Assembly: GCA_036172665.1 (NCBI GenBank) | Contig: CM069871.1 | Coordinates: 9,238,001 to 9,302,000 of the forward strand | Source of the DNA: Prosopocoilus inquinatus | Lineage: Eukaryota > Arthropoda > Insecta > Coleoptera > Lucanidae | Direction: 5' to 3' | DNA: 64,000 nt | Shown: piece after piece, positions 2,820-60,774 of the stretch | Layout of the letters: each line of letters starts with the position of its first letter | Position numbering within the stretch: the stretch's first letter is position 1 | The notes under the pieces: generated by a model | What the model saw: the letters and a program-made list of their open reading frames with translations, nothing else | The model's database searches: none | Told to the model about the DNA's origin: nothing | Position numbers and translations under genes: made by a program

Positions 2820-3003
2820 TGTTAACGCATAACGTATTTATGCGTAACTACGATCCATGATTTACGATATAGGTTTAGATAGTATGCCATGTAAGAGTTT
2901 CTATGTATTACACAGTCAGTTGTCTGCTGTCTGATAAAAGTTTTAATTAAAGAAAGTTCTTATACAAGTGTATCGTATTTGGTGTTTACTCGCAAGCCTA
3001 ACA
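2820..3003 (+). repeat. 5' LTR of the Copia element
   Basis: The 184-bp repeat TGTTAACGC...CCTAACA is preceded by the target site TTTAC. It would supply the promoter of the element. Confidence 0.95.
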
Positions 3004-3017
3004 GGTTACGGGCCCAG
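3004..3017 (+). other. Primer binding site, half-tRNA type
   Basis: GGTTACGGGCCCAG directly abuts the 5' LTR. It is complementary, with one mismatch, to the anticodon stem-loop strand of initiator methionine tRNA (CTGGGCCCATAACC). Drosophila copia is known to prime from an internal cut of that tRNA rather than from its 3' end. The mismatch falls opposite the middle anticodon base. Confidence 0.8.
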
Positions 3018-3036
3018 ATCAACCACAGTGCTAAAC

Positions 3037-6000
3037 ATGAATATGAACATTGCAAGAATTGAATGTCTCGGCAAAGATAATTATGACTCCTGGAAACTAC
3101 ATATGGAGGCTCTTCTCATCAAAAATGATGCTTGGCCGTACGTGATAGGCGAAATTGCAAAACCAGAACTTATTGAAGGTGACATCACATCGGTAGAAGC
3201 AAGAAAAGCTTGGGAAAAAGCAGATGCTAAGGCAAAGTCTGATATCATATTAGCCATCAGTGGATCCGAACTAAAGCAAATTAAGGGTTGTCTTACATCG
3301 CGTCAAGTTTGGCTAAAGCTAGAGGGAATTTATCATTCACGTGGACCTGCAAGAAAAGCTACATTACTGAAACAGTTGATGCTCCATCGAATGGAAGAAG
3401 GCAGCGATATTCGTGAACATGTAAATACATTTTTTGACGCAGTTGATAAGTTACAAGATATGCAGGTGGACATACATCCTGATGTTCTGGCGACAATGCT
3501 TTTATACAGTTTGCCGTCAAATTTTGACAACTTTAGATGCGCCATCGAAGCTCGTGATGAATTGCCCTCGCCCGATGTTTTACGTGTAAAAATTATAGAA
3601 GAAAACGACGCACGAAGAAATGAATCTCAAGGTGTAGGTGCCAAAGCGATGTACGTAAATAAAAATAAGAATCGACATGGCAAGAACATGACAGATCAGA
3701 AAAATAGTCAGTCAACGGAGAGCAAGAAGATTTTCAAGTTTCGTTGTTATAAATGTAACGAACCAGGTCACAAAGCTGTGAATTGTCCAAAGAAGGCAAG
3801 TGTTAAACATTCAGCTGTATCATTATGTGCAGATGCTTTGCAAGTGGCAGCAAGAAAATCAGTTCGAACATGGTGTTTGGACAGTGGAGCTACTAGTCAC
3901 TTATGTAGTACATTGGATTCGTTTTGTAAAATAGACAGTTCAAAAAGGGGAAAACTGAATTTGGCGAACGATGCTTCAACGGAAACCACCGCTGAAGGAA
4001 GTGTGAAAATCGTAACTGATTTAAACGGGGAGAATACAGTTGTTATTTTGAAAGAAACTTTGCATGTCCCAGATCTCCGTATGAATTTAATGTCTGTAAG
4101 TAAAATAACAGATAAAAATTTTGACGTTATATTCACAAAGACAGACGCTAAAATTGTGGATAGCAACGGAAATGTCAAATTAATGGCAGACAGAATCGGT
4201 GGTCTGTATTATGTACGTGAATCTGAACAAAGCAATACCAATAAATCGAGTTACGCATTTTCGACAGAAGAAAATTCTTCAAATTTTGAAATTTGGCATC
4301 GTAGACTTGGTCACTTGAATGCAAGAGATCTCGTCGAAGCTAAACGTCGAGGGACCATTACAGGTTTAAATGTAGAATCTAAAATAAAAGATTTTACTTG
4401 CAAAAGCTGTCTGGAAGGAAAAATGACTCGTCAGCCATTTCCGAAGAAATCCAGCAGAGTTTCAAATTTGCTTGATTTGATTCATTCGGATATTTGTGGG
4501 CCAATGAGAGTCGAATCAATTGGTAAAGCGAAGTATTTCATCGAGTTTATTGACGACCGATCGAAATGGTGTGAGGTGCGTTTCTTGAAGTTCAAGAGTG
4601 AAGCACTACAAATGACAAAGCAATTTATTGCAGAAGTCGAAAATCAAAAAGGAATAAGTATCAAATGTTTTCAGTCTGATAATGGTTCAGAATTTACAAG
4701 CAAAGAGTTTAATGATTTCCTAAGGAGTAAAGGCATTACCAGACGACTCACAATACCCTACAATCCTGAACAAAATGGAATTGCAGAGCGACGCAACCGA
4801 ACACTCCTGGATACAGCAAGATGCTTACTGTTGCAAACTGGTTTGCCACAGAAGTTTTGGGCTGAAGCTGTTAACACGGCAAATTATATCCGAAACAGAT
4901 GTCCATCAAGCAGCCTGGGTGGATTGACTCCGTATGAACTCTGGACCGGCAAGGTGCCTGATGTGAGGCATTTCAAGGTATTCGGCTGCAAAATATACAT
5001 TTTGAATCGAGATCCAACTCGAGGCAAATGGGATCAACGTTGTAAAGAAGGTAATTTTATTGGTTATTCTGATGAATGCAAGGGTTTCAGAATTTGGTTA
5101 CCCGGAGAAAATAAAGTCGTCGTTTTACGCGATGTACGTTTTTCTGAAAACAGCATCGAGAAACAAGAACTTCAGAAGAATTCTCAGAAGGAATTTATTG
5201 ATCTGAATTTATTTGAAGAAACATCAATTCCTCCTGCAGAAGTTCAAGAAGGTGAAGAACGAGATGTGGAACCGGAACCGGTACAAGCTGTCGTCAGAGG
5301 ACGAGGTCGTCCTAGAATATTAAGAAATGGACAAAGAGGCCGACCAAGAAAAATTTACAATTGCGTTACTAATGATTCAGAAATTGTTTCAGATAATGCT
5401 GAAATTGCTGAAGTAGAATTAGACGCACTAATCTCTGAAGTACCTATGAAACAGGCTCTTACAAGCCCGGAAGCTGAAGAATGGTACGAAGCTATGACAT
5501 CAGAGATAAAATCGATTTTACGAAATGATACCTGGAAAATTGTCGACCGACCCAAGGAAAAAGCTGTCATCGGGAGTCGTATCATTTTACGAAATAAATA
5601 CAACTCCGATGGATCTCTTCACAGAAGGAAAGCTCGCTTAGTTGCTCAAGGCTTTAGTCAACGGCCTGGAGTACATTTCAACGAGACTTTTGCACCTGTG
5701 GCTCGCTTGGGATCAATACGACTAATGGCATCATTAGCTGCTCGATTTGAAATGAAAATGTATCAATTTGACATTACGACGGCATATTTAAATGGAAATT
5801 TAAAAGAAGAAATTTTGATGAAACCCCCTAAACAATTGTCGCAAATATTAAAGAAAATCATCGACGAAGAAGAAGCTGATGATGAAAATTTAGTAAAAAA
5901 GGCAGAGAAAATGTTACAAGACTTGAAGTTTGGAGACAAGGTGTGCCTACTTAAAAAGTCACTCTATGGTCTTCGTCAAGCCGGACGAAATTGGTATGAG

Positions 6001-7071
6001 AAGTTAGACGGCGTACTGAAGAAGTTCGGAGCAACTCCTACAAATGATTCTTGTGTATATTACATCGGTCAAGGGGAGGATATCACTATGATAGCCGTAT
6101 ATGTTGATGACATTTTAATCAGTTCTCGTGATTTCAGAATTGTCAATAAGCTTCGTGAGGAAATGTCCAGAAATTTCGAAGTTAAGGACCTCGGTGAAGT
6201 TTCTTATTGTCTGAACATCGAGATCAAGGTGAAACAAGGAGAAGTAACCATGAATCAACGAGGCCACATTGACGACATATTAAAGCGTTTTGGAATGCAT
6301 GACTGTAACTCAGTTGGAACACCAATAGATCCATGTGTAAAGTTATCCAGAAATATGAAACACTTGGATGAGGAAGAATCTAAATTACCATATCGAGAAC
6401 TGGTTGGTGCATTAACATACTTAGCTGTTACAACGCGTCCAGACATAAGTTTTGCTGCTAGCTATCTGGGACAGTTTAACAACTGTTTTGGCAGAGAACA
6501 TTGGATTGCGGCTAAACGAGTAATACGATACTTGAAAGGTACGAAGGATTTAGGACTGGTCTATCGTAAGGACTCTAAATCAATTGAAGGTTTCGTGGAT
6601 GCAGACTGGGGTGGTTGTGCTGAGGATAGGCGGTCATACACCGGTTTTATATTTAAATTATCCGGAAGTCCCATATCTTGGGATTCTAGAAAACAGCCAA
6701 CAGTAGCATTATCTACGACCGAAGCTGAGTATATGGGTTTGACCGAATGTACTAAAGAATCAATTTATTTGCGAAGATTTTTAGAACAATTAGGTTTTTC
6801 GAATTTATCAGAAGTAACTGTATTCAACGACAATATGGGAGCGTTAAAATTAGCACAAAATGCAACATATCATTCGCGAAGTAAGCATATCGATATGCGT
6901 CACCATTTTGTGAGAGAAGCTCTGAGTAAGAATCTACTCAAAATTGATCACGTTTCATCAAGTGATATGCCAGCCGACATGTTAACGAAAGGTCTTCCAA
7001 AGACAACACATTTGAAATGTGTTAAGATGTGCGGATTGAATCATGTCGACAGAAATTCAAGAAAATCATAG
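3037..7071 (+). CDS. Copia-type Gag-Pol polyprotein
   Basis: One frame of 1,344 residues. I chose the ATG at 3037, the first in frame after the primer site; the frame is open back to 2968 but without an earlier ATG. A Gag region is followed by a CCHC zinc knuckle CYKCNEPGHKAVNC near residue 237. Then come an aspartic protease site DSGATSH near 282 and a pre-integrase motif WHRRLGHLN near 420. Integrase catalytic residues fit D485, D548 and E584, exactly 35 residues between the last two. Reverse transcriptase has YVDDILIS near 1022, and RNase H has DADWGG near 1188 and STTEAEY. No frameshift or stop interrupts the frame, and all catalytic motifs look intact. Confidence 0.96.
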   Translation: MNMNIARIECLGKDNYDSWKLHMEALLIKNDAWPYVIGEIAKPELIEGDITSVEARKAWEKADAKAKSDIILAISGSELKQIKGCLTSRQVWLKLEGIYHSRGPARKATLLKQLMLHRMEEGSDIREHVNTFFDAVDKLQDMQVDIHPDVLATMLLYSLPSNFDNFRCAIEARDELPSPDVLRVKIIEENDARRNESQGVGAKAMYVNKNKNRHGKNMTDQKNSQSTESKKIFKFRCYKCNEPGHKAVNCPKKASVKHSAVSLCADALQVAARKSVRTWCLDSGATSHLCSTLDSFCKIDSSKRGKLNLANDASTETTAEGSVKIVTDLNGENTVVILKETLHVPDLRMNLMSVSKITDKNFDVIFTKTDAKIVDSNGNVKLMADRIGGLYYVRESEQSNTNKSSYAFSTEENSSNFEIWHRRLGHLNARDLVEAKRRGTITGLNVESKIKDFTCKSCLEGKMTRQPFPKKSSRVSNLLDLIHSDICGPMRVESIGKAKYFIEFIDDRSKWCEVRFLKFKSEALQMTKQFIAEVENQKGISIKCFQSDNGSEFTSKEFNDFLRSKGITRRLTIPYNPEQNGIAERRNRTLLDTARCLLLQTGLPQKFWAEAVNTANYIRNRCPSSSLGGLTPYELWTGKVPDVRHFKVFGCKIYILNRDPTRGKWDQRCKEGNFIGYSDECKGFRIWLPGENKVVVLRDVRFSENSIEKQELQKNSQKEFIDLNLFEETSIPPAEVQEGEERDVEPEPVQAVVRGRGRPRILRNGQRGRPRKIYNCVTNDSEIVSDNAEIAEVELDALISEVPMKQALTSPEAEEWYEAMTSEIKSILRNDTWKIVDRPKEKAVIGSRIILRNKYNSDGSLHRRKARLVAQGFSQRPGVHFNETFAPVARLGSIRLMASLAARFEMKMYQFDITTAYLNGNLKEEILMKPPKQLSQILKKIIDEEEADDENLVKKAEKMLQDLKFGDKVCLLKKSLYGLRQAGRNWYEKLDGVLKKFGATPTNDSCVYYIGQGEDITMIAVYVDDILISSRDFRIVNKLREEMSRNFEVKDLGEVSYCLNIEIKVKQGEVTMNQRGHIDDILKRFGMHDCNSVGTPIDPCVKLSRNMKHLDEEESKLPYRELVGALTYLAVTTRPDISFAASYLGQFNNCFGREHWIAAKRVIRYLKGTKDLGLVYRKDSKSIEGFVDADWGGCAEDRRSYTGFIFKLSGSPISWDSRKQPTVALSTTEAEYMGLTECTKESIYLRRFLEQLGFSNLSEVTVFNDNMGALKLAQNATYHSRSKHIDMRHHFVREALSKNLLKIDHVSSSDMPADMLTKGLPKTTHLKCVKMCGLNHVDRNSRKS

Positions 7072-25100: not shown

Positions 25101-28100
25101 ATTATTAATTGGTGCTAAAACGTCGGAATTTCTTTTTATTTATTTCAAAAATCAAAGCCATCTTACAGGATAATCGATCATACCTAGATCTGGGCAGGAG
25201 CTATCGAATTAGTTTTTTACATTTTATTCAAGTGGGGGTGAAAATTGAAGGAAAGAATCTTCTAGAAATTGCTCGAATGGTTCGCGACTTGTTGCTTCGC
25301 ACAGTATCATAAAATAAATGACGTGCGACGCAATTTACATTACATGGACTGTACAGTAAACGAAATGTTTACAAAAGCGTAAAAACGAAGCAAATTATGA
25401 AGTCTAGACAGACGACTTTATTACAAGCTATTTAAATCTGCATGGAATGTATACATATATACCGTAGCCGCACAAATAATAATGAAATGATGTTTGTACT
25501 TTCCGTCATTTATTTTTTACTCGGGCTTTTGTGCCAGTTTGTGCTCGACTTGAAAAAAAAAATTGGACGGCAGGGAATTAATTAATGCAATCAATCTTAC
25601 TTTTATGTGACGGTGAATGAAACAAATCCTCTCGTACATGTCAGATTATTCCCAAGACGCAAGGTTTTCCCATTCAAACCAATCCCAAAAGGCCACCCAC
25701 ACAGACGAAACAAAACAGCCAAAAATTTAAAACCTAATACATAAATTATTAAATTGATTTAAAAATCTAGCAACGTTAGACAGTATCCTAGAAAATTAAA
25801 AACTAACATAGAACGTTACAAGCTATCCAAGAAAATTAGAAACTATTCTAGAATAATAGAAGCTAGACGTGTTAGATGGCGTAATGGCAATGGTACAATA
25901 AGGGTGACCAAAACATTTTTAAAAATTAATTAATGTTAGCCAAACCATTTTCTTAAGCCCCCCCAATTACTAGAAATTTATTTTACTCACAGAATTTCGG
26001 GGCAATCCGTCGGTTTACCAAGACGCCCCCCTCTTCTAACATAGTGCAGCACCTCCAGATTATTCCGTGCTGGATAGGGTTGTTGACCGAGCGTCATGAT
26101 CTCCCAGAGGAGCACGCCGAAAGCCCACACGTCCGATTGATTCGTGAAGACGCCATCGACCAAAGACTCGGGCGCCATCCAACGAACGGGCAACAACCCC
26201 TCCCCCTCTTTCCTGTAGTAATCGTTCTTGTAGATGTCCCTGGCCAACCCGAAATCGCCAATCTTCACGATTCTACTGTCGGGTTCGGTCGACGAAACCA
26301 GGCAGTTGCGACAGGCGAGGTCTCTATGGACGAAGTGCATTTCCTCCAGGTATCTACACCCCGTCGCGACGTCCACGCACATCTTCAGAAGCTCAACGAG
26401 CGTCAGGGGAGGCGGATTCGACTGGGGGAGGGCGAATGGAAAAAGCGATTTTATTCCAAAGTACTTAAGCAAAACGCACGCAACCAATCTCACCCCGGTT
26501 TTCCTCGACGACCTCAAATACGTGAGCAAATCTCCACCCTCCATGAGCTCCATGATGATGAAATGGGGATCGTTGTCGAGACAGACACCCAACAACTGGA
26601 GGATGTGCTTGTGTTTGAAGTGACTCATCAGCTGGGCCTCTTGTAGAAACTCGGTTTTCTCTTGGTCGGAGGCGCCCTTCCTCAAAGTCTAAAGCAAAAG
26701 TTTACAGGGAAAGTTCAGAAGTTGTTTGTGACGGCGCGCTTACTTTCACCGCGACTTTTGTGTCGCCCCCGCTGGACGTCAGGCCTTTCGCTTTGCCCTC
26801 GAAGACCTCACCGAAGGCACCGCTGCCCAAAAATTTCATTAAAGTTATCTGATCCCTGGAACAAAATTTAGAAAAAATCTTTAATAACAAGGATTTGAAA
26901 TAGATTTTTGAATCGCTCGTCGATGAGAGGATGGGACAGGAACGGGGAAAGAAGAGAAGAAGCTTTGGGACTGGCGGTGCAAAATGAGAAAAGGGCAGCA
27001 GGAAGTGAAAGAAAAGGAATGTGAAGAAGTTGCAACGCAAAGCAATTAAAGAAAAAAGAGGAGAAGATAGAGGAAGAAGGGAGGCCATGAAGAAAAAAAG
27101 ACGAATGGGAAAGATGGGAAATGCCAAAGTTTAAAGAAGAGGGAAGTCGAAATGTGAAGAAGATGAAACGTAATTAAAGAAAGAAAAAGTGAAAACCGGA
27201 AATGAGGAAGGTGGGGTGGAAAATGAGAAAACGGCGGCAGGAGAAAAAAGAAGAATGTGAAAAAGATGTAACGCAACTCAATTAAAGAAAAACGAAAAGA
27301 AGAGAGAGGAAGAAGGAAGACCATGAAGAAAAAAAGGCAAGATAAGAGCCAGGAATGGGAAAAGATGAGGGATACTAAAGTCTGAAGAAGATGGATGGAG
27401 AAATGTGTAGATTGGAAATGAGGAAGAAGCGAGGACAATCAAACGCCCCTTATCTGTCAAGGCCCCAACGACCTACCTTCTTATATGCGGCAAGAGCGTA
27501 ATCTCCTCGGCTGTGGGTTGGGCCGAAACGTACAAGACATTCGTATTATGAACAAAATTGCCCCTCCTAGGAAGCTCCCTGAGGGTGGCGAGTTCCACGT
27601 CGGGTCCTCGTATGGGTGCTATCACATGCTGGCTCTTCTTGTTCTTCTTACAGTTCCACTTACCTACAACCACCCACCCACATTTCAAAACTGTCTTGGA
27701 CGCATCGTTAGGATTACTTACAACATGCGACGCATATGAGGAGGGCGACGACGATTGAAAGAGGGATGCAGATGGCGACGAGAATCAACATCAACGGATC
27801 GGGTTTTTCGGCGAGCAGGGCGGCGGTGGTGGGATCGAATTCGATGTCCTCACTTGGATCTGACCAACCGTAGTCGTTCAGTGCCAAAGCCCGAAAGGCG
27901 TAGCGGAATTCGTCGCTTAAACCGTTGATCTTCCAGTAGGTTTCTGAGAAAAATTTAAGGGATGAAGGGCCAATTAAATTATTTTACCAAGCGCCAAGCT
28001 CTTCGTGCCTAGCCCAATTCCACAGCGTTGGAAGTAATGATTGGCTGAGTTGTCCAAACTGGGTCGTTTTTTTTTTTTTAATATGAAAACTTACCCGTCC

Positions 28101-31100
28101 CATTATAAAATTGCTCCCATTCGAATTCCTGTTCCTCCACAGATGGGGCTGTATGGAACCAAGCGCTTCTATTGGTGCTGCGTCTTTCGCGATAGGTCTT
28201 CAACTTCATCCCTTCAAGCTTATACAAAATGATGGGGGACCCATTTTCCCTGGAAGGTTCCCACCATACTTTAGACTCGTTTCCACTGACGAAGCGAACT
28301 TCGGGTTTGCCGGGGGGTGAAGGCCTATCGCCTTAAATTAAAAAAGCAACAAATTTTTTATGCATTTTTTTGTGGATTCTTCCGCGTGGCACTCACTCAC
28401 CGAGGGTCTCGAAAGTAAACCTGGAATCCTTGGGCCAAATGTATAGTTCCTCGTAATCCGGGTAGGTGAGCATGAAACGAAACTTGTATTGGGTTTTCGG
28501 TTTTAAATTCTCGACGTAGAGCTCGATGGTGTTGTCCAAGCCATCATCTTGGGGTTTGATCTTCTCCCAGTCGTTGGAGGTCAATGGGGCGTACTCAGCG
28601 ACGAAAGTCTCTGTGTATTTGGAGACGTTCCATTTGGCCTGGAGGGTGTAGGCCGTGTAATTAATAACCGTGATGTTGTCGGGTTCGGGGAACGTGGTGA
28701 TTTTAACGCTGGTGCTGTCGCTGGACGTGTCGTTGGTTTGGCTGTACGCTCGGACCCACACCAGGTAGCTCTCGTTGGGCGATAATTTTTGCAGGAAAGC
28801 GGAGTACTGGCTCGCGCCCACCGGAATGTCGTTGTCCATGACCATTTGCTCGCCTTTCTGTCTTATGCCCGATATAGTTCCTTCCGTTTGCCAGTGGATT
28901 TCGTAATAGATTGTGTCGCCGTTGAATTCTTTGGGCGGCAGCCAAGTCACCCTCACCAAGGTCGGGTTGAGGACCGTTACGGTGATGTTCTGTGGTTCTG
29001 ATGGTGCTGAAAAGGCATTTTTTTTTTACCTCTTACCACTTTTTTGTTAAATGAATCATTTGATTAGAAGAAAATTCTAAACTTAATTTATAACTTTACA
29101 AAAGATCGTGAGCGTTCTCCCAAGGTTACTTTAAATGTTTTAAATTTTAACTAATCAAACAGCGCGCCCTTTTTCGCTTATACAGTAAATTCACGCGCTT
29201 CCTGATACGCGTGTAAGCATCGCAAACTCTTTTCATATTCTCTTGAACATTCAACTGACGCACAGGTGGCGAGACTCAGTTATCAAAATACTTAAATACT
29301 TATGGCAAGAGACATTGCAATTTTTGATTTGTCAATCCACAGTTTAAAATTTACACTGGAGGGCCATTATTTGGCCGCTTTGTGTGGAGTAAGTTATTAT
29401 GCAAACTAGCTTCTTATTAGGTCAAAAATAATTGAGTGATGTCGCAAATTCTAAGCCAAAAAAAAAAAAAACAAAGGGGCGAACTCACAAGTTGAGTAGG
29501 TATTAGAATTATTGAAGAAAAAAAAAGGAACGCCACGAAAGCGCCACGAAAGAAGTCTAATGATAACAACAGAAGAAAAAAAGATAATGAGGACCATGAA
29601 ACAGGCAAGAAGGAAAGTCAAGGAGAAGCAGAAGTTGGTTGGGTGAACTGGTAATTTCATTTGAACACCAGACTTACTAAAAAAGAAGCTGAAGGTAAAG
29701 AGGCAAAAACGGAAAGAAGAAAAGGCAAATTTCAGAAAAACGAAGAGTTTTCGGTTGAACTACGTAAAAGACAAATTTAAAAAAAAAAATGCTGGATAAG
29801 AAAGAAAAAAGTGCCGCAAAAGAAACACAAGAGAAATCTAACGATAGGAAAGGAAGAAAAGGCCGTAGAAAGAAGAAGAATAAGTGTCATGAAACAATAG
29901 AGAAGGAAAGTTATGGAAAGCGGATATTGATGTTAGGAGATCGGCCATTTGAAAATCGGAATTGCTGAAAAAAAAGTTGCGACCATTTGAAAATCAGAAT
30001 TGCTAAAAAAGAAGTTGAAGGTAAAGAAGTAAAAGGAAACGAAACGAAAGGAAAATATAAGAAGTACAAAGAAATTCTGAAGTAGAAAGAAAAAGAAGTA
30101 TCACGAAAGTGGCACCATGATAACAAAGCAAGAAAGGAAGTTAGGCAAGAAGGAAAGTTCAAAAAAGCAGAAGTTAGTGTGAATGGACTGGTCATTTAAA
30201 AATCAAAATTGCTGAAAAAAGAGAAGCTATAGGGAAAGTAGCAAAAGATATGAAACGAAAGATTAATTGAAGAAATTGACCCAAGTTTAAAGAAATATTA
30301 AAGAAGAAAGAAAAAGAAATGTCACAAAAGAGATTATAAAGGAAGTTAAACTACTGCACAAGAAATAGTTAAAATAATTTGCTTTTGGATCAATGATGAC
30401 CAAGTTCCTCTGTCTAACATAATTTGTGAAAGGACTTCACAACCAAAATTTGTTTGACTCAATAGAAAAAATAAATTGTTCATAAAGAATAATTGATACT
30501 TATAAAAAAAAAAGACGTAATCCAAACATTCAATTCCATTCCTTTATAATTTCTTCTTCTGCTAACGTTTCGTTCCTCCTTATAAAAGGTCATCCTCAGG
30601 GTAAGCTGCGGCTTTACTTGTCTATTGTTTAATTTTGTTCTGTTTAATTAAATATTTTTTCCAAGTCACTTTCATCCTTCCTTTTTTTGAAACTTTTTTC
30701 TTCCTTACAGAACGCCATTACCAGAGTTGTTACAACATAATGTCCAAATTAATCTTGTTTAAAAGTTCTGTTCACTTGTTCTTCTTCTTCTTAATGATGC
30801 CAACGTTTTGGCCTTTATTACGAAACGATTTCCTCAAGACTACATTTGCTATTCTTCTTCTTTTCCTTGCCATTGCTGATTTTTAGTTAAATATTTTTTT
30901 ACCATTGGGATATCCTGTCGGTACTGTTCTTCTATTTTTGCTAAGATTTTCGTCTTCTTTGTCATCATTATTAAGTTATCAAAAAAAATGTCGACTTTTT
31001 CTTCTTACGTTTCGTCCTTTATTACGTCTACGAGACTACTTCTGCCATTCTTCTTCTTCTTCTTCTTCTTGTTTCCATGGCTGATATTCAATTAACTTTT

Positions 31101-40100: not shown

Positions 40101-43100
40101 ATTTTATTTATTGAGTAGACTTTCAGTTGAAATAAATTTTTTTCCAGTTTCATTTTTATTTATATAAAAAAAGATTGGTTCCATTTACATTCTAATTTCT
40201 TTTCTTGAATTTTAACATTTTCAATTGAAAAAAGAATTATAACAAATAAAACTCGTACTTAATTTAATTAATTGAGTTTTAAGTTAATTTTGATTTTTTC
40301 GGATAAAATTTGAGTTGAACTCAATTTTTCCCAGCTTACTTTTTTTAAATAAGAAAAAAAATATTTTAATTTAATTTTTTCCTTGAGTTTTAACATGTTT
40401 AATTGCAAAAAAAATTATAATAAATAAAACTCGCGACATCACACGGGTTGTATTTAATTTAATTAGTTGAGTTTTAAGTTACATTTTGATTTTTTTCTTG
40501 GGTTAGATAGACTACGGGTTGAACTCAATTTTTTCCCAGTTTCATCTTTTTAAATAAGAAAAAAAATTGTAAGTTTTAACATTTTTAATTAAAAACAAAT
40601 ATAATAAATAGAACTCGCGACATCACACGAGTCGTACTTAATTTAATTAATTGAGTTTTAAGTTAATTTTGATTTCTTCCTTGGGTCAGGCAGAGCTTGG
40701 ATCGAATTCAATTTCTTTCCAGCTTACTTTTTTAAAATAAGAAAAAATAAATTTTTAATTTACTTTTAATTTTTTCCTTTTCCATTTTTAATTGAAAAAG
40801 GAATTAATAAATAAAATTCGCGACATCACACGAGTCGTACTTAATTTAATTAATTGAGTTTTAAGTTAATTTTGATTTGTTTCTTGGATTAGGTAGAGTT
40901 TGGGTTGAACTCATTTTTTCTTCTACTTGAATTTTTTTTAAATAAGAAAAAAATTGTTTCAATTTAACTTTTAATTTTTTTCCTTGAGTTTTAACACTTT
41001 TAATTGAAAAGAAAGTTAATAAAACTCGCGACGTTACACGGTTAGTTTTTGAACTAGCATTTTGGGGCAAACCTGTAGCTACTAGTTCGCTATGTAATAA
41101 TAGGTCGATTGGATTGCATTGGAGTTCTCGAACTAATGCTCTGTTGGCCACGCCTCAAAGAGGGGGGGAGGGGGTGAAGCAGCTATGTGGAGGATGCTTG
41201 GCAATCTAAATCGACTTACAAACAAATTTCTTAAGAAAAAATATGTAGTTATTTAATTTTTAATTTTTTGTGGTGGTTGAAGCAAAAAGAAATTCAAGTA
41301 TAAAGGAAATGGTGTGTCAGTGCTGAATTAAATAAATTAATATAAAAGAGGAAACACTGACGGGAAAATAGAAAATTCTGTCATTTCCAGGATTTGAACC
41401 CGAGCCTTTCGGTATCGCGCCGAACATTCAAACCACTGAACTAAAGCGATCCCGGCGTTCAGGCGAATTAATCTAACAAAGGTTAGAATTAGGTGGAAAT
41501 AAATTCTCGGGTTCAAATCTCTAAAGTGACAGAATTTTTCTGTCTTCCTGTTAGTGTTTCCTCCTTTATATTAATTTATAAAAAGAAAATCTTGTTCCTT
41601 TCACTCTCTTTTTACTTTTCAACCCTGCCCATACGCTTAAAAAAAGGTTGCACCATCAGGGTGCTTAATTCTCGCGCGCCCTTACAACTGGTTGCAGCGA
41701 TTTAAGATTATAACCCAGTTGCGCCCTGTACAAAATAATAATTTGATACTAAGAGAAATAAAGGCTGACAAAAATCTGCCGCAAACAAGACTCGAACCTC
41801 TGGGTCGTAATAGTCAAATGGCCAAAGCGGTTTGGCATGTATCCAGACGATTTGGGTTCGAGTCCTAATTTTTTTGGAACTTGGACCTCGTGTTTCGTGT
41901 TTCCTTTAGCATTGTATCGCATGTAATTTTTATCATAAAAACCGCAACCACGGGAAGAAATGAAATTGAAACCCAAAAGAAGTCCATTCAAAAAATTACA
42001 TTTTTAAAACAGTGGGTCTTACCTCCAACTGCGGTTTGAAAGACGATCCCTCGTCCGATGTACACCCCATTCTCATTCTCATTCTCGTTCTCGTTCTCAT
42101 TCTCATTCTCATTCTGATTCTTCAAATTGCTATAATAATTACTGACCCCAACGGAAAACAGGTATTTAGAATAGGGCCTCAATCCGTTGATCTCGACGGT
42201 CTTATCAAAAGTAACCGTACGAGTGCAGGTTTCGTCGCACTGAAGCGAATCCTCCTCGTTGTAGGGCATGTAATAAATCCGGTACTCGATCGTGGCCATC
42301 GAAATATTCCTGCACTCCGGATGTATTTTGAAATCGGGCATCTTCAGGATTAACGAGTGTGCCGTCTCGCGAATTAGCGAGACCGTTATGTTCCGATTGA
42401 ATTTCGGCGTGAGGCACTTCTTCGGCGGGAAGGGTTGCATGTGAGGGCCGAAGATCAGCATATCCCGAGCGTCCACCTGCTCTTTCGATGTCACCAACAC
42501 ACCGCCGCTTCTCTTCAAGGTGTAGACCAGACCCAGAGTTGAATTCGTCCAATACAAGTTGCTAAAGTCTGATTTTAGATTTCGCAAGGGCATGCTGTCG
42601 CCGAGCAGGGAATTGTTGGCGATGACCTCACAGTAGCAGCCTTCTTTCTCGGAGGAGATGACTTCGCGGGTTGATGTATCGATGAAGATCAGGAGGGGTT
42701 TCGTTCTGTAGTCCGAGTGATCGATGGTGAAGGCTTTTTCGACCGCCGGGTAAATGGGGCAGTTGCAGGGGACGTCCTCTTCGTTTTGTGCGAAGACCTT
42801 CTCGTAGATGCGCTCGACGAAGAATGGTTCGATGCCCGAACCGTCCGTGTTGCACTGCATTAGGCGGTTCTGATGGTTTTGATCGGCTTCGACCCAGTAG
42901 AGTTTTCTAAAAAATTAATTTCCATTTAAGCAAGAAAAAGGAAGAGAGATTCGTTTATGTATGATGGATCACTCTGGGGCGATTGCCTACGGCGCCAGCG
43001 CGGCGTAGGTGATTCAGGAAAAAAGAAGGTCAAGGTCATCCGCACAAAGCAAGAGCACTTACCTTCAAAAGACCCCTTAAGCATTTCGATTGTTTTTTTT

Positions 43101-46100: not shown

Positions 46101-49100
46101 AATTAAGTTTGATTTGGATGTAAGTTTTGTGAATGTTCCCAGCACTCCCCTGCTTACCGTGCCAATCTTCGTCTGGTAGACCTAAATATTGATACGAAGC
46201 TCGCGGAAAGTAGTATAGGATCAGGACAATCAATTCGATCGCCCTGTACACCGTCTACGGATTATAAGTAGTAATTGAATTTTGAGTATGTTTTGATAAA
46301 CAAAATTGTTATAAAAGTAACCTTTAAGTTGAAAATTATATTGATGCATGTTATCTGATTATTTTATTGTACTATAGTAACGAAAGTAACGAGTAACGAA
46401 TACTTTGTAACGGGTACCGAAATCTAAAGTAACGAATACATGCGAGTACAAACTTCTTCGTTACTTTTACAGCACTATGCAAGAATAATGAGATGAAAGG
46501 TTTCTATCAGTGAAGGTCAGGTCGATTTTTCGATCAAGATAACAGCGTAAGGCCAGTGGATTATCTAAATGGCCGAAGACGTACGTTTTTTCTTTGAAAA
46601 CCGGACCTGCGCGCGTTCGTGTCCAGAATTCGAGGCAACTATTGGATTCGTTGGAATTTTTTTTTACTCATATGAGAGTGGCAGTTTCGCGTTCTGACGC
46701 TGTTTAGGGGTCGATAAAAAATCGTGAAAAAAAATTTCGAGTTTGCTTCGAATCGGTCAGCATGCTTCGTCGCTTATCAGATGAAGTGGAGGTGGAAAAT
46801 CATTTCGGTTCGATTTTATGATCCTAGACAGCAGCATAAGACAAGTGCATTCGTTAAAGGGTTGAAGATGTGCTTTCTTGCGTTTGCGCTTTTGCATCCA
46901 GAATTCGTCTTTTATTACTATTTTTTTCAAGGGGGTGCGCATATTATATATTTAGCCCTAGATTCGAGATTTCCTTACTGCGGCACTGGTAAATGTCATC
47001 ACATTTGCAAATCGTTGCAATTTCTACCTCTTCAGGCGAGGCGGCTTCCTTTGTCGGCTGATTTCAAAGCGAACCGCGCTGTTTCCGAAATATTCACGGC
47101 ATTTCCGTTCCGCTATAATTTTTCTTTTGAATTTCATCACATTACCCAACGTTTAACACGCGCTTAAATGCGTGAGAGAGGAACGCTTGGTATTTCAGAG
47201 ATTGTTTTGATTGGTCGATTGTCTGTCTCCCTTGTTAAAGACAGAAAGTAGGGGGATTGTGGTTATATAGTTCTGTGCAGAGCGAGATAATGATTCAGTC
47301 ACTTGGCAAATACCAACATCTTTGGTTGCAGTATGTGACTGTGACAAGACGTTCGACAAAGTTCAATTCCAATCCAAAAATTCCAATTTCTGAACAAACT
47401 AAAGTGGCGCCCATCCCGGGTGATGTACAGGAATTACGCCGAAGTTAAATTCCACGGCAGTAGCGAATAAGAACTGAACCACATAGCCGACGTAATTGAA
47501 AATTAGGGGGTTACCTGAAAATAATAAATTTCGTCTTGGAGTAGGTCGTTGAGGACGTACTCGCGAGCGTCTGGGGGGGCTTCCGCGTCCTGGCACACAT
47601 CCTCGCGCTCGCCTTCTTCCATGTACCAGCAAGAAATCTTGTAGCTCTGGATGACCCCGTTGGAATTCGTGGGTTTATCCCACCTGACAGTCGCGCTTAT
47701 AATCGGCGCCAGACTATGATGTCGACGGTACGTGATGTACGCACGAAGGTTTTCCGGCTCCGACGGTGTGGACGAGGGGGAATGTAGGACGAGGCGAATC
47801 TGGGTCGACGAGCCCCAATACGTGAAAGCCCTCAGTTGCACTTGCATTTCAGAGAACGGAGGCACGACGTGCCAGTATTTGATTGAGGGGGTGGTCGTAG
47901 TTACCTGCACACGCAAAAAGCAAATCACCGGTGCACATCGCACCTGATTAAAATAATCATTACCGGCGGATCCACGATGCCGTTGGATTCGATTTTAATC
48001 TCGTAGAAAACGTCGCCGTAATTAACCCTCTGGACCGGCATCCAGGTGATGTTGAACGACTCCCAACTACCGAGGACTTCCACTGAGTTGACGTCCACGA
48101 TTTCCGGCACTACCGAAATATTATCCAAGGTGACGCTTGTGCTGTCTGCAACGCACAAATGTTACGTTATATCGTGAGGGGGGAATGTGAGGGTGGAGGG
48201 CTTACTTGGAAGAACGTTGAGGGTCGAATCTATGATGTACACCATGTTCAGCCCAGAAAGACTCTTTCCGTTCACGACGGCGATGTTCCCGCCTTCCAGG
48301 TTGCTTATGACCGCGTTCTTGTCGTCTTGCAACCAGAGCAGACGGTTGTTGAAGTAACACAGTGGTCCTTGCATGTCCGGCTTTTGTAAACTGGTGACTT
48401 TCTCATCCAGCGTGCCTTCGAGTTGCATCGACCCGGCCATCGGGGCCCTGAACAAATTCGACCCTTCCGACCCCCGAACTATCCAGTACACGTACTGATG
48501 GTCAATATCGAGGGTCAACCCCATCACTTGTTTCCCGGAAAATAGTTGAGCGCTGTGGTAGATGATGCGCTCGGCTCCGTTGAGGCGCGAGCATTCCACC
48601 GCGTACAAAGTAGACCAGTACAGGTAGGCTTTGATGGGGTCGACTATCAATTCCTTGGCGATGGTCAAAATCGGAAGGGGTTCCTTGTCAACGCCACTGA
48701 GGCTCCCCCTCATTATCTATTATTACATAGTAAAACTGATGGATTAGAATTTGGGGGGTGAAGGGATATGGGGGAGAAGCGCCTTACCAATTGCTGCTTT
48801 GGATTCGACCAATACAATTTCTTGCCGATCCAATCGACCGAAATGCTCCCGACGGAATCGATGTTGGTGAGCTTTCCGTGTCTGTGCGTCGTGATGTTAT
48901 ACCAAAAAATCTGCGACGTGTTCGACACCAAATAGATCTTATCCTCGTACCAAGCCGTATCCGTGAAATAATAATCTTTCATCAGGCTCTGGTGGATGAG
49001 GGTTTCGACGTTTTCGCCGGTCGCATCCGACTTGAGCAATCCCTCGGAGGCAGACCAGAGAATCGTAGGGTGCCTTCCATCTTTGGATATTTTAAGGGAG

Positions 49101-52100
49101 CGTCCCCTAAATTCCGAAGACCAAGGTCCTTTCCCCGAGCTGGTATACGCAGCGGCCTTGATGATATACTCGGTGTCCTCTTTTAAGTTGTGGATGGTGT
49201 ACGACGTCGTGTTGATGTTCTGGTAGGTGTGGATCTCGTTAGTGGTGAGGTCCTTAACTGAGATTTCGTAAGACCAGTTTTGCCAAGCGCCCTTTCCTGA
49301 AAGCCAAAGCGCAAAAATAGCGCAATGGGGGTGGAGGTGATCAAATTTTATTGTTTACCTTGGCCACCTAGTAAATGAGGGGGCTTCCACGTAGTCTTCG
49401 CCCGGTTACTCCCAAAAATCGCCTGCATGGACGTCGGGGGGTTAATAGGAACCGGAACGGGCTGGGAAATCGGCAAGTTGATGATCACCTTCAAGTAACT
49501 CTCCTTCATCAACGCGTTAAACGAATTGTGGAAGTAAATCTCGTCGTTTGGATGGTACTCCTCGAAGAACACCTGGTTCCCGTCGGTCCAATAAAACTTC
49601 TTATTCGCCGTGGCGATCGAGATGACCTTCTGCAAGATCGAGTTTCTAATTTTAGGCCTGGCGTCGCTCACTTCTTTCCTGCGAGCAATTCGGAAGATGA
49701 TTGATTACTTTGGGTCGCCTTTTTTGCTGAAATTACCAACACCTACCCATCCAGGGAAACCGAGTTGACGGTCTTGTTGTTTTGGTTCGAGACGAGCAAC
49801 AGGAAGTTCGTGTGGTCCACGATGAACGCTCCCAAATTCGGCTCGGAAAAAATCAGTTCCGGTTTGATTTCGTGCTTGATTCCGTTGCTGATGTCGGCCA
49901 GGTCTAAACGATACAGCCCGCTCTTGTTGCCGTCGTGTATGATCCAAAATAAATACCTGGGGGCGCCCCAATTTTTTTTTTTGTTCTGTTTCTTTTTGAT
50001 TGACGAAGTTTGGTTTGATAACTTACCCGTTGTAAGAGTCGACTTCTATGTGGTGTGGTTTGATGGTGAGGCCGGCGACGGCGACGGTGAGCCCCCGGCC
50101 GTCCAATCCGCAACGCGTCACCGTCCACATCTTCCGCTCGTAATTCACCTCGCCCAGAATATACAATTGCTCGTTCAACCAATCAATGGATAGGTCCAGG
50201 GGGTGAAAGGCGAGCTGATTCGGCGAGAGGATTGCGGTTTTGCGGAAATTTGCTTCCCTTGACAAGGGCATCCTGTAGATGTATCTATCCGAGTCGGATA
50301 TGAAGAGCAAATTGTATTTGACGTGAATCGCAACGCCTGTAAAACAAGGAGGGGTGGTAAAATAATTACAACAGCACATCTAATAGCCACCTTTGATTTT
50401 GACATGGTGCTCCGTGTAGTATAAAGTGACCGGTTCGTCCATGATATCCACCCCTTGCTCAACGATTTCATGCTCGGTTCCGATTATTAAGACGGGGCCT
50501 TGAGTGTCTTTCACTGCAATTTCAGGTGAATTAAAATGGGGCGTGGATGTCGGAGAGGGGGACGTACCTGCTGATTCTCTTGGAGTCCGAACCACGTAAT
50601 AAGCAGCAGGGCCGGTGCCAACCCCGTTGCTCATGCTAATCGAAACGTTATACCTTTTGCCCGGTTTCAACGAGGTGAACATGTAAAAGTTTTTTTCCGC
50701 CGGTATGTCCTGCACAAACAATTTGGGGTAATGAAAGATGGGGGGCGAAATTATTAAAACAAAAGAAGACACAAAGCTACAAAAGCGTTGGGAAACATAA
50801 ACATAAACAGAGGAGAAGGCATGCTGGTTGTTAGTCGAGACAGGACCATCAAACACCATGAGGATTTATTTAGATTTGCTTTAAAAGTATAAAGGTGCGG
50901 GGGAAGTCAAGAAGTGCATTATTTCATTATTATTTTTTTTTTTTTGATGAAGGAAGCGCAAGTTGAGAACGCAAGTGGTTTTTATTGAGAGAGGGGGCAG
51001 CGCAGGGGGGGACGGGCAAAGAAATTTGATTGAATCCGTCAAACCTTGAGGGCGGAATAACTTGAGATGTCGTTATCTGTAATGCGCACCACATAGGAAA
51101 GGATAGGGCCGTTTGGAAAGGGACCGGGTTCCCAGCTAACACTGATGCGGGTGCAATCCACGGGTACCGCTCGTACACTAGATGGGGGTGAGATTGGAAC
51201 CCCGGCCGGTAGAGTCATGATGACGACGCTCTGCGCTGACGTGACGTGCTCCGTCGATTGGAACAGTATTATGGCCACCCTGAACTACAAAAGACAAAAA
51301 AAAAAACATGCCATTACAGGCTTCTTTTATTTTGGTTAACCCCCAGTCCATCGCTTTGTCAATTAGGTCTCCCTATTTGTCAATTTATTTTTTAGTTTAA
51401 GAAAAATATCAAGTAGGAGAGAGAGTCATTTGACAAATCAGTCTTTTCCTTTTGGTTTTCCCCTTTTGTCAATATTGGCTGCGGTAAGTGTACGGCCAAA
51501 CTAGTCAGACTAAACCACGTGATCAGTTTTTCCAATTGCTGATTGATCAGGTGGTTTGGTCCGACCGTTTACTTGGCGATCTCGTGTATTTTGGACCACT
51601 GACTTAACTCAACCCATGTTTCTCAATTTTGTCAAATAATGACTTTCCTACTTGACACAAGACTTGACATTTCCGAAGCCAGGAAATAAACTGACCAATA
51701 GGGAAACTTAATTGGCGAAAGGGGAAAACCAAAAGGAAGAAACTGGAACGATGCTAGAGAAAGTAATTTCGCTCACCCTGTATTTGGTGTAGGGCTGCAA
51801 GTTATTCACGGTGAAAATGGTGTCGTTTAACCCGAGTGACTGGTTCTTGTAGAACTGCCAGCTGGCCGAGTGCTCCTCGTATTTCCACTGGACCAAGTAC
51901 TTCAGCCCCGGCACGTCGGGCTTCTTGTAGTTCCATTCCAGTTTTAGGGAATTCGAAGTTAGGGAATCCGCCACCAAGGCAGGCGGTGGGGGAGTCCCCA
52001 AGTAAGAGCGCAACTGGGAGATGTAAATGGTGACTGCGTCGTTGCATCCCATCACGCAATACAGCTGCTTGGCTGATAGTATGTTGGTGGTATTCTGGAA

Positions 52101-55340: not shown

Positions 55341-56535
55341 CAAAGAATACCCTGTAAATACTATTAAAGAAACAGAGCAATCGATTAATAATTAAAAAAT
55401 CTAAATAAACTCAGTTCACTGACCGCACAACTTTTGTAAAAATAAATTAGTTTAAAGTGTTTAGGAAAAATTCTTACAATTGGCATTATTTTTCAAACTA
55501 AGGGCTCAATTAAAAAAATAAAACAAAATATTGTATTGTATTAAAATGGATTAGGATTGGCATCATATTTCAAACTAAAAGCTCAATTAAAAAAAACAAA
55601 GTAGTTTATAGGACCCGCGAAAGGATGGAAAAATAATTTTAGTACTCCTAGCAATAAGAAGAAAATTTTTCACAATTCACAATTAATTTGAAAATGATTG
55701 TTTATACGAGGGTGGGCCACAAAGTTCACGCATTCGAACACAGTTCATGTGTCCTCAGTTCATAAAACAAATGAAATATGAATTTAAACAAGATTAAAAA
55801 GTGATAGTATGGGCCTTATTTTGGACTTAAATTCTGTGAGAATCTTTAACTTTCTCGTGTGAAAGGTGTTAAAGAAAATCCTAAATACATTGAATTGCAA
55901 ACGTAGCCAAGGATGATTAGCCTTTTTTTGTCCGAGCAGACATACAGGTTGCCTATTTATGTTGGTCACATGGCTCTCAGTTTTATATGGAAGCTCTGTA
56001 TTAAAGTATTTACGACGAAAAATTTTGATTGACCACGCTTGAAGTTACTTTCTGAGTAACTGGTCTTGACATTGACTTTTAGGAAAATGCATAACTTTTT
56101 TCTGTTCCACAGGATTTTTCAAAATCAAATGCAATGAAAAGAATTTTGGAAGAAATCAATAAAAATTACAATGATGTTTTGAATACAAAAATGTTAAAGA
56201 AATCGTATGACCCGACGCATCACCGAATACGACGACTGTATAAGTAGAATGTATCGAGTCATACTTCTCTTTTAGAGAAGTTGAAACGAGTGTTCAGTAA
56301 GTAAATCGACTTTTCAAGGCATCCAAAAAAGAATCTTTTTTTCATTTTTCACACTGAAAGCTCGTTTAAGAAAACAGAATAGTTTACAGAACTGACGAAA
56401 GTATAGAAAAATAATTTTCGACAATCCAAAGACTAATGAATAAAAATTACAATGATATTTTGACTATACAAATGTTAAAGAAAACTTTTTTTAGAAAAAT
56501 TTTGTGCAAATCGTTTTTGATTGCAGTGAGAACCT

Positions 56536-56598
56536 CGAGCAGCCTCTGGACAGCTGTTTCAGCCCTGCTTGGGGCTTCTTCAGCAGAAACGTAGCTCG
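56536..56598 (-). ncRNA. Hammerhead ribozyme, unit 1
   Basis: Same sequence as the ribozyme described at 57381-57443, on the minus strand. Confidence 0.82.
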
Positions 56599-56847
56599 AC
56601 ATTCCCACTGCAGACCAAAAACGACTTGCCCAATTTATTCGCAAATGCGATGTAAGAATGATGAACATATAAAATAGCGACATCTTACTATCGCTTTTTG
56701 ACCTAACATTGCAGTAGGATAGACAAATTGAAGCGGGATTTGCTCCTAATGAGTCCCCCATGCAAGGCGGCCATGCTTGCTGTCAAAGCATAATGAAAGA
56801 TTTTAGAAAAATTTTGTGCAAATCGTTTTTGATTGCAGTGAGAACCT

Positions 56848-56910
56848 CGAGCAGCCTCTGGACAGCTGTTTCAGCCCTGCTTGGGGCTTCTTCAGCAGAA
56901 ACGTAGCTCG
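56848..56910 (-). ncRNA. Hammerhead ribozyme, unit 2
   Basis: Identical minus-strand copy exactly 312 bp from unit 1. Confidence 0.82.
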
Positions 56911-57159
56911 ACATTCCCACTGCAGACCAAAAACGACTTGCCCAATTTATTCGCAAATGCGATGTAAGAATGATGAACATATAAAATAGCGACATCTTAC
57001 TATCGCTTTTTGACCTAACATTGCAGTAGGATAGACAAATTGAAGCGGGATTTGCTCCTAATGAGTCCCCCATGCAAGGCGGCCATGCTTGCTGTCAAAG
57101 CATAATGAAAGATTTTAGAAAAATTTTGTGCAAATCGTTTTTGATTGCAGTGAGAACCT

Positions 57160-57185
57160 CGAGCAGCCTCTGGACAGCTGTTTCA
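57160..57185 (-). pseudogene. Truncated hammerhead at the inversion junction
   Basis: Only the 3' half (TGAAACAGCTGTCCAGAGG and the stem I strand) remains on the minus strand; CTGAAGA and most of stem II are lost. The break lies in TTTCA (57181-57185), which both orientations share. Confidence 0.8.
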
Positions 57186-57380
57186 TTATGCTTTGACAGC
57201 AAGCATGGCCGCCTTGCATGGGGGACTCATTAGGAGCAAATCCCGCTTCAATTTGTCTATCCTACTGCAATGTTAGGTCAAAAAGCGATAGTAAGATGTC
57301 GCTATTTTATATGTTCATCATTCTTACATCGCATTTGCGAATAAATTGGGCAAGTCGTTTTTGGTCTGCAGTGGGAATGT

Positions 57381-57443
57381 CGAGCTACGTTTCTGCTGAA
57401 GAAGCCCCAAGCAGGGCTGAAACAGCTGTCCAGAGGCTGCTCG
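57381..57443 (+). ncRNA. Hammerhead ribozyme, unit 4 (reference copy)
   Basis: Stem I pairs TTTCTG with CAGAGG (two G-U pairs) and CGAG with CTCG. Invariant CTGAAGA is at 57396-57402. Stem II AGCCC/GGGCT with loop CAAGCA is at 57403-57418, and GAAA at 57419-57422. Stem III is A-U plus C-G closed by the palindromic loop AGCT. The triplet GTC ends at 57430, the expected cut site. Stem I extends outward through TGCAGTG/CACTGCA and CGTTTTTG/CAAAAACG to span 57352-57471. Short stem III with palindromic loop is known from minimal type I hammerheads of Penelope-like elements and retrozymes, which may act as dimers. No conserved core base is missing. Confidence 0.87.
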
Positions 57444-57692
57444 AGGTTCTCACTGCAATCAAAAACGATTTGCACAAAATTTTTCTAAAATCTTTCATTA
57501 TGCTTTGACAGCAAGCATGGCCGCCTTGCATGGGGGACTCATTAGGAGCAAATCCCGCTTCAATTTGTCTATCCTACTGCAATGTTAGGTCAAAAAGCGA
57601 TAGTAAGATGTCGCTATTTTATATGTTCATCATTCTTACATCGCATTTGCGAATAAATTGGGCAAGTCGTTTTTGGTCTGCAGTGGGAATGT

Positions 57693-57755
57693 CGAGCTAC
57701 GTTTCTGCTGAAGAAGCCCCAAGCAGGGCTGAAACAGCTGTCCAGAGGCTGCTCG
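57693..57755 (+). ncRNA. Hammerhead ribozyme, unit 5
   Basis: Identical plus-strand copy 312 bp after unit 4. Confidence 0.85.
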
Positions 57756-58740
57756 AGGTTCTCACTGCAATCAAAAACGATTTGCACAAAATTTTTCTAA
57801 AATCTTTCATTATGCTTTGACAGCAAGCATGGCCGCCTTGCATGGGGGACTCATTAGGAGCAAATCCCGCTTCAATTTGTCTATCCTACTGCAATGTTAG
57901 GTCAAAAAGCGATAGTAAGATGTCGCTATTTTATATGTTAAAGAAAACGTACGGCGCATCACCGAATACGACCGTTGTATAAATGGAATGTACCGAGTCA
58001 TCTCTTATTTTAGAGAAGTTGAAGCGAGTTTTCAATAGATAAATCGACTTTTCAAGGCATCCAAAAAAGAATATTTTTTCCATTTTTCACACTGAAAGCT
58101 CGTTTAAGAAAACAGAATAGTTTACAGAACTAACGAAAGTGTAGAAGAATAATTTTTGACAATCCAAAGACGAATGAATAAAAGTTACAATGATATTTTG
58201 ACTACACAAATGTTAAAGAAAACCTACGACGCATCACCGAATACGACGGTTGTATTATTGGAATGTATATAGTCATCTCTTATTTTAGAGAAGTTGAAGC
58301 GAGTGTTGAAGAAGTAAATCGACTTTTCAAGGCATCCAAAAATGAATCTTTTTTCCATTTTTCACACTGAAAGCTCATTTAAGGAAACAGAGTAGTTTAC
58401 AGAACCGACGAAAGTATAGAAAAATAATTTTTGACAATCCAAAGACGAATGAATAAAAGTTACAATGATATTTTGACTACACAAATGTTAAAGAAAACGT
58501 ACGACGCATCACCGAATACGACGGTTGTATAAATGGAATGTATATAGTCATCTCTTACTTTAGAGAAGTTGAAGCGAGTGTTTAATAAGTAAAACGACTT
58601 TTCAAGACATCCAAAAAAGATTTCTTTGTTTCATTTTTCAAACTAAAAGCTCAATTAAAAAAACGATATAATTTACAGAACTGACGAGAGTATAGGAAAA
58701 TAATTTTTGATAATTCGAAGACAAACACAAGGATTAAATT

Positions 58741-60654: not shown

Positions 60655-60774
60655 AAGTCAGTTTCGACTGTAGTGAATAGTTGACCGCAGTTCTCTTCCT
60701 GAAGAGGCCCCAAATAAGATCGAAACAGCTGTCCAGGGGATGGTCGCGAAGTTCGCTCCAATCGAAACTGACTT
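60655..60774 (+). ncRNA. Diverged hammerhead relative with conserved extended stem I
   Basis: The segment is 120 bp, as long as the matching part of the retrozyme unit (57352-57471). CTGAAGA is at 60699-60705, GAAA at 60722-60725, stem III loop AGCT, and GTC at 60731-60733. Stem I pairs TTCCTG with CAGGGG. The outer stem pairs AAGTCAGTTTCGA with TCGAAACTGACTT. Most stem bases differ from the retrozyme yet still pair. Stem II (GGCCCC against AAGATC) is poor, so this copy is probably inactive. Confidence 0.72.

Follow-up and report, generated by a model that had tools for sequence, protein, structure and literature searches.

Head-to-head insertions of a hammerhead retrozyme in Prosopocoilus inquinatus point to double priming by Penelope-type machinery

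Results

We analysed a window of 64,000 nucleotides from the beetle Prosopocoilus inquinatus (contig CM069871.1, positions 9,238,001 to 9,302,000), which carries at 56486-57936 a single insertion made of two opposed runs of one 312-bp unit with a hammerhead motif. The element is most likely a non-autonomous animal retrozyme whose RNA, presumably circular or multimeric, is primed twice, at two fixed sites termed A and B, by a Penelope-type reverse transcriptase (RT) and endonuclease. We base this reading on the A/B plan of the inserts and on a resident Penelope-like element (PLE) with the same insertion anatomy. Across the sampled loci the retrozyme inserts have fixed outer ends, a target-site duplication, a constant orientation rule and scattered inner junctions; they also contain chains of more than one lap, and the two chains of an insert share variants of their template.

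The insertion in the window is bracketed by a 12-bp duplication, GTTAAAGAAAAC, and lies in a 275-bp tandem repeat, which was also recognised by eye in the flank to the left of 56486. The 312-bp period is kept with 100% identity over 697 bp on the minus strand (56489-57185) and 759 bp on the plus strand (57181-57939), and four complete hammerhead cores are present, two on each strand. No stop-to-stop open reading frame (ORF) of at least 120 aa was found within 56486-57936; the insert is thus non-coding and does not carry the RT and GIY-YIG domains that an autonomous PLE encodes. Its parts are as follows.

56474-56485, no strand: target-site duplication, left copy (GTTAAAGAAAAC)
56486-57185, minus strand: A-chain, complementary DNA (cDNA) of the hammerhead strand from unit site A (about 305), 2.23 laps
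56549-56583, minus strand: hammerhead core, copy 1
56861-56895, minus strand: hammerhead core, copy 2
57181-57185, no strand: head-to-head junction, 5-bp microhomology TTTCA common to both chains
57181-57939, plus strand: B-chain, cDNA from unit site B (about 130-133), 2.43 laps
57186-57497, plus strand: reference 312-nt unit, with unit position 1 at 57186; within it, site B at about 57318 (unit 133) and site A at about 57490 (unit 305)
57346-57385, plus strand: extended stem I, 5' strand, partner of 57439-57477
57396-57430, plus strand: hammerhead core, copy 3, with CTGAAGA at 57396-57402 and predicted cleavage after C57430
57439-57477, plus strand: extended stem I, 3' strand
57708-57742, plus strand: hammerhead core, copy 4
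57937-57948, no strand: target-site duplication, right copy (GTTAAAGAAAAC)
57935-58722, no strand: 275-bp tandem repeat, the insertion target

The final three bases of the B-chain (57937-57939) are microhomology with the target duplication. At the outer end of the A-chain there are three extra T (56486-56488); the A end (CTAAAA) is likewise set off from the duplication by one to three additional A/T residues in L009 and L053, two of the sampled loci described below, and these residues may reflect either slippage on AAAA or untemplated addition.

A first-pass annotation had described this region as a retrozyme-like array of four identical 312-bp units at 56486-57934, two minus and two plus, with minimal type I hammerheads, intact and recently amplified beside sev. 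The four units, their identity and the start were borne out, and the retrozyme-like character agrees with a core and stems in every unit, the unit length, the absence of coding capacity and a duplication longer than 4 bp. The end lies at 57936, and although the copies are recent, the array was not amplified in place: it is one insertion with a 12-bp duplication, and the identity of its units follows from the copying of one template.

Each unit contains the elements of a minimal type I hammerhead that had been noted earlier, namely CTGAAGA, a 5-bp stem II (AGCCC/GGGCT, pairing probabilities 0.98-1.0), GAAA and the GTC triplet, with cleavage predicted after unit 245. Stem III is a possible 2 bp with a self-complementary AGCT loop, and stem I, which had been read as able to extend over more than 25 bp, is quasi-continuous over about 40 bp in the predicted fold. 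The core aligned to the Rfam model Hammerhead_1 (RF00163), as had been proposed as a check, with 23.8 bits (E = 6.4e-4 in a 161-bp search); this score is below the gathering threshold of 34, and at gathering thresholds Rfam gave no hammerhead across the window. An alignment of nine hammerhead copies yielded no usable covariation, and we make no claim from it because copies found with RF00163 are biased to the model and four are without the column-14 base. Ribozyme activity of the unit is a prediction from its motif and stems.

Folding the unit as a circle gave -112.1 kcal/mol, compared to -74.7 ± 4.7 kcal/mol for 100 dinucleotide shuffles (z = -8), and the antisense-strand circle reached only -85.9 kcal/mol. 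In the minimum-energy circle, the hammerhead hairpin and the other arm are connected by two unpaired linkers, which are site A (unit 292 to 2) and site B (119-143). The ensemble unpaired probability was 0.72 for A and 0.65 for B, with an overall mean of 0.34; 3.5% of 15-nt windows were as open as A or more so, and 9% as open as B or more so.

We then searched the 650 Mb assembly (173 contigs) for exact matches to patterns taken from the unit. The hammerhead core was found 12,816 times (6359 + 6457), the B end 9,758 times and the A end 12,354 times, with no match to the reversed core pattern or to the controls for the two ends. On these counts the retrozyme is a genome-wide, mobile family of thousands of copies.

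Insert anatomy was determined by BLAST against the window unit for the window and 78 loci, L001-L078, of which L001-L008 came from the RF00163 search, L009-L038 from the core pattern and L039-L078 from coordinates in the core-pattern list. The sample thus spans the first 6 Mb of one contig, the eight Rfam-search loci and the window. Once groups at locus ends and identical bodies had been removed, 86 groups remained: 62 simple head-to-head groups, three composites (L017, L036, L064) in which inserts are neighbours or nested, and 21 single-chain groups. Thirteen of the latter were below 90% identity; the eight above it were L028, L029, one in L047, L060, L072, one in L074, L075 and L076. An exact 12-bp duplication was present in both L028 and L029; the former also has a short B piece overlooked by BLAST, and the short piece in the latter is ambiguous.

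The tandem units and inverted layout in the window could suggest an ordinary satellite, which the first-pass annotation had held out as the alternative, or a foldback or terminal-inverted-repeat DNA transposon. At the sampled loci, however, inserts are dispersed and only a few units long, have target duplications and unlike ends, and include same-strand chains of several laps. We therefore rejected satellite DNA and a DNA transposon for these loci, and regard either as scarcely credible.

In L001, L002, L004, L007 and the window at 60693-60741 (plus strand; RF00163, 27.4 bits, below gathering) we saw an older, diverged hammerhead subfamily, whose common part is the ribozyme and about 55 nt downstream; its ends in the four sampled loci are variants of AATCGAAACTGACTTGCAACTA. 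Its appearance is that of decayed A-chains from a related retrozyme, to whose subfamily the window copy probably belongs.

The outer ends of the inserts follow a two-site rule. In 56 of the 62 simple head-to-head groups, one outer end is A (unit 296-312) and the other is B (122-145), and no A/A group was observed. Both outer ends of these 56 inserts are 3' ends of the hammerhead strand, indicating that both cDNAs began at the target and ran inward. Orientation followed a rule as well: among the listed sites on contig C1 up to 6.36 Mb, neighbours within 1 kb were minus-then-plus in 23 pairs of A sites, 26 of B sites and 19 of cores, with no plus-then-minus pair within any class. Pooling the classes gave one such pair, from two adjoining inserts in L036.

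We compared the flanks of the 56 A/B inserts for repeats. The best flank repeat score was at least 9 in 55 of 56 and at least 12 in 44 of 56, while among 278 mismatched flank pairs these scores were reached in 12 and 1, respectively; the modal score of 12 corresponds to a duplication of about 12 bp. The target logo (n = 55) is two-fold symmetric around the centre of the duplication and extends two to three bases beyond it (A.78 A.71 at -2,-1; A.80 A.69 at 4,5; T.73 T.82 at 8,9; G.51 T.73 T.67 at 13-15); 34 of the 55 sites had a single candidate placement, and in the other 21 one of several equal placements was set by fit. Such symmetry is expected of a symmetric, probably dimeric endonuclease.

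Chain statistics were obtained from 53 two-segment inserts (106 chains). A-chains measured 25-737 nt and B-chains 33-759 nt; 11 of 53 A-chains and 8 of 53 B-chains were longer than 312 nt (19/106), and no sampled chain exceeded 2.5 units. With cut-offs of 60 and 200 nt, 52 of the 53 chains from A and 22 of the 53 from B were long enough to pass the cleavage site, although the core-picked loci favour long A-chains. Inner ends were scattered over the unit, and only one of 106 fell at unit 246, the first base past the cleavage site. A linear self-cleaved monomer was therefore rejected as the template, given this single end and the 19 chains of more than one lap.

The template could instead be an uncleaved multimeric linear transcript of tandem copies, with the hammerhead dispensable for insertion, which would be a sub-case of the double-priming reading. 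Chains of more than one lap are compatible with it, and the near absence of inner ends at unit 246 counts in its favour. However, with no chain above 2.5 units, the sampled inserts would be poor sources of long same-strand multimers, and a circle folded as predicted, in which the A and B linkers are open, accounts for both sites together; we hold the multimeric template to be rather unlikely.

Variants private to an insert were common to both of its chains at 0.286 of variant positions; permuted chains gave a mean of 0.065 and a maximum of 0.142, and none of 500 permutations reached the observed value. Thus, the two chains had one RNA, or sister RNAs from a single locus, as their template. Between laps within a chain, 18 variants were shared and 57 differed over 2641 overlapped positions, figures whose meaning is limited by later mutation and end misalignment.

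At the head-to-head junctions, 41 of 53 were clean and 12 carried a gap. Microhomology of at least 3 was present in 61% of the clean junctions compared to 6% of simulated ones, with a mean of 3.2 compared to 0.70, although BLAST ends may inflate both values. The inner positions of paired chains were unrelated, lying within 10 nt in 4 of 53 inserts where 3.6 were expected. This bears on self-priming or foldback of a single cDNA, which has been suggested for palindromic junctions of PLEs, as proposed for Adineta (PMC3846280, consulted in part), and one PLE insert of this genome, L079, indeed has a nearly palindromic junction. Under foldback, the outer ends should be identical and the inner positions should match; retrozyme inserts have A opposite B and inner offsets as expected by chance. 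Self-priming is thus disfavoured as the origin of the retrozyme form, for which we consider it highly improbable, and some PLE junctions may fit it.

The first-pass annotation had reasoned that an RT would be needed in trans, and a likely kind of donor, a PLE, was located in the same genome. In a search for GIY-YIG (PF01541), 150 of 2232 candidates were scored and every one of these passed E = 0.001; most had equal scores, and their open frames reached up to 788 aa. One locus, L080, encodes a 787-aa protein with RVT_1 (1.6e-14) and GIY-YIG (9.9e-7) domains, and minimal hammerheads flank its ORF on both sides. Of the protein matches to the resident PLE that carry a source name, those from Tribolium (52% identity over 56% of the query) and Molorchus (49% over 59%) rank highest in identity, and further matches come from Allacma and mosquitoes.

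GIY-YIG neighbours within 10 kb were minus-then-plus in 47 pairs, minus-minus in one and plus-then-minus in none, a bias implying that the resident PLE also inserts head-to-head. Its outer ends fall at a short site about 50 nt past the hammerhead and at a tail site 33-39 nt further. Among the tail sites listed, the first 100 of 483 exact matches, 19 of 20 PLE pairs on contigs C1 and C2 had exactly one tail end, one had none and no pair had two. Exact flank repeats of 11-16 bp were found in 13 of 13 PLE inserts when looser anchors were used, the initial anchors having placed 4 of 13; repeats of at least 11 occurred in 1 of 156 mismatched pairs.

Two further arrangements of PLE tail sites were observed. 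Four copies of the tail pattern stand on one strand at an exact spacing of 140 nt (C2:49248341, 49248481, 49248621 and 49248761), perhaps a hammerhead-plus-tail mini-unit derived from the PLE and a possible route to the origin of retrozymes. Two inserts have same-strand tail sites 2604 nt apart (C1:418883/421487 and C2:41411418/41414022), a spacing that suggests more than one lap or a tandem PLE template.

A retrotransposon of the long interspersed nuclear element (LINE) type, with an apurinic (APE) or restriction-like (RLE) endonuclease and twin priming, could also be considered as the mover. Twin priming by LINEs likewise yields head-to-head inversions. In the retrozyme, however, opposed chains are the rule in complete inserts, duplications cluster at 12 bp in a palindromic target, and a resident PLE has the same anatomy (the LINEs of this genome were not searched). 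A LINE-type mover is improbable.

Elsewhere in the window, ORFs with tyrosine-kinase and fn3 domains at 25987-26688, 28393-29025 and 48713-49354 (minus strand) are consistent with sev, and a family search of 41988-42914 gave no family match. An intact-looking 1374-aa Copia-type ORF (gag, integrase, RVT_2) lies at 2947-7071 (plus), a fragment of an MRJP/yellow-family gene at 1636-2454 (plus) and a tRNA family match of 38 bits at 41379-41450 (minus).

Discussion

We propose that the retrozyme RNA, whose minimal type I hammerhead lies within a long hairpin, would be processed into a circle of about 312 nt (less probably, it would remain multimeric) and would then be taken up by a Penelope-type RT/endonuclease. 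The enzyme would make a staggered break in an AT-rich target of two-fold symmetry and leave 12-nt 3' overhangs, as the duplication and the logo suggest. A single RNA species would be primed by both target 3' ends, at A by one and at B by the other; in the predicted fold these sites are single-stranded linkers. From there the cDNAs would converge, at times after more than one lap, halt at scattered places and be joined, often through about 3 bp of microhomology, to give a head-to-head insert with a 12-bp duplication. From the sequence evidence, Penelope-type machinery very probably moves the retrozyme by such double target-primed reverse transcription; the circularity of the RNA, the polarity of the overhangs and the machinery, perhaps of another family than the PLE described here, are what we infer.

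It is conceivable, though we lean slightly the other way, that one circular RNA in one ribonucleoprotein (RNP) serves both target strands together: a symmetric Penelope-type dimer would present A to one overhang and B to the other, and a standard insertion would be an A+B pair made by rolling-circle reverse transcription in opposed directions. With the same reserve, the resident PLEs might likewise pair their short and tail sites on their hammerhead-flanked RNA in one RNP, and the 2604-nt spacing of tail sites suggests more than one lap for them as well. If true, Penelope retrotransposition in general would use circular RNA as its template, with retrozymes as pared-down parasites of the process.

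Several observations weigh against double priming at A and B by Penelope-type machinery. Six of the 62 head-to-head groups fall outside the A/B end windows: L003, L066 and L070 narrowly (unit 3, 294 and 2), L011 with one end at A and the other at unit 37, L042 as B/B with no duplication detected, and one group in L047 that has ends at unit 119 and 133 and a duplication and is B/B-like. Outermost exact-pattern sites taken alone gave 24 AB/BA, 8 AA and 10 BB; of these 18 AA or BB cases, 12 were aligned, of which 11 turned out to be A/B and L042 remained B/B, the other six being outside the sample. Most loci were chosen by their core, a selection that is biased to long A-chains and lets short B/B inserts go unseen. 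Priming on one side occurs too, to judge from L047:4554-4967, which consists of one chain only and must have been made by it, since its 12-bp duplication is flush with the 5' end of the chain. An old insert in L019 is the sole A/B insert of 56 with no duplication. As to the fold, the minimum-energy circle pairs CAGC (unit 238-241) with GCTG (210-213) and so masks part of the catalytic core; for the pair of stem I that adjoins the core, the probability is 0.21.

Other reservations concern the PLEs. The target logo of the resident PLE (n = 12) has some flanking AA/TT, and the central AA..TT is not clearly present (A at position 4 in 5 of 12, compared to 0.80 in the retrozyme); on this account, a different PLE family of the genome may serve the retrozyme. 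Sequence likeness between PLE and retrozyme past the hammerhead, near the start site, is weak (p = 0.028), and at the B site (p = 0.72) and elsewhere it is not significant. In vitro, the start sites of the Anolis PLE PAc did not differ between the strands (PMC11167929, in part), unlike the strict pairing of retrozyme sites.

Animal retrozymes have been described, and in the consulted part of PMC7229834 their re-entry into DNA and the RT responsible are hypotheses, with PLEs or LINEs merely suggested as movers. The genome of P. inquinatus holds thousands of natural products of the retrozyme insertion reaction, and the sampled ones make the question of the mover testable: they have two fixed starts, a symmetric 12-bp target and a two-chain form common to the resident PLE. 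We found no report of head-to-head retrozyme inserts in the open-licence PMC literature, judged by titles and the beginnings of abstracts.

The closest known systems are compared here as far as the consulted parts of the papers describe them. Like the metazoan non-LTR (long terminal repeat) retrozymes of PMC7229834, the present element has a unit within their 170-400 nt range, a type I hammerhead, short tandems, duplications longer than 4 bp and a strongly self-paired RNA, and a PLE is the suspected mover in both. Head-to-head inserts, two fixed RT starts, a constant 12-bp duplication and a palindromic target set it apart from that account, in whose main text the word 'inverted' is absent, as does the insertion anatomy, by which the mover is linked here to a resident PLE. 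Plant LTR retrozymes (PMC4918200) also have a hammerhead and a life cycle through circular RNA, which for the beetle element is a proposal; unlike it, they have a type III hammerhead, are of LTR type and make 4-bp duplications (PMC7229834, PMC7761336).

Among PLEs, Anolis PAc starts reverse transcription internally at two sites, between which its tail lies, and both strands of AT-rich DNA are cut and extended (PMC11167929). The two internal starts, the cutting and extension of both target strands, the AT-rich target, the tail at an end and a hammerhead upstream of the start sites are all likenesses to the retrozyme as we propose it to insert; the retrozyme differs in encoding no protein and in the distance between its sites, about 140 and 172 nt on the circle compared to 30-40 nt in Anolis. 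Tails of published PLEs are called 'optional', whereas an insert here as a rule has one end of each kind. In Adineta vaga, Penelope elements have inverted pLTRs (pseudo-LTRs), mostly head-to-head, with a tail on one and duplications of 8-10 bp in the cases shown (PMC3846280). That arrangement was explained by self-priming on an antisense template, whereas for the retrozyme a single RNA species primed from two target ends agrees with the data. The two-site model may offer a simple account of both the head-to-head pLTRs and the 'optional' tails of Penelope elements, and the A/B rule of the retrozyme, as read from its inserts, is like the short/tail rule of the resident PLE.

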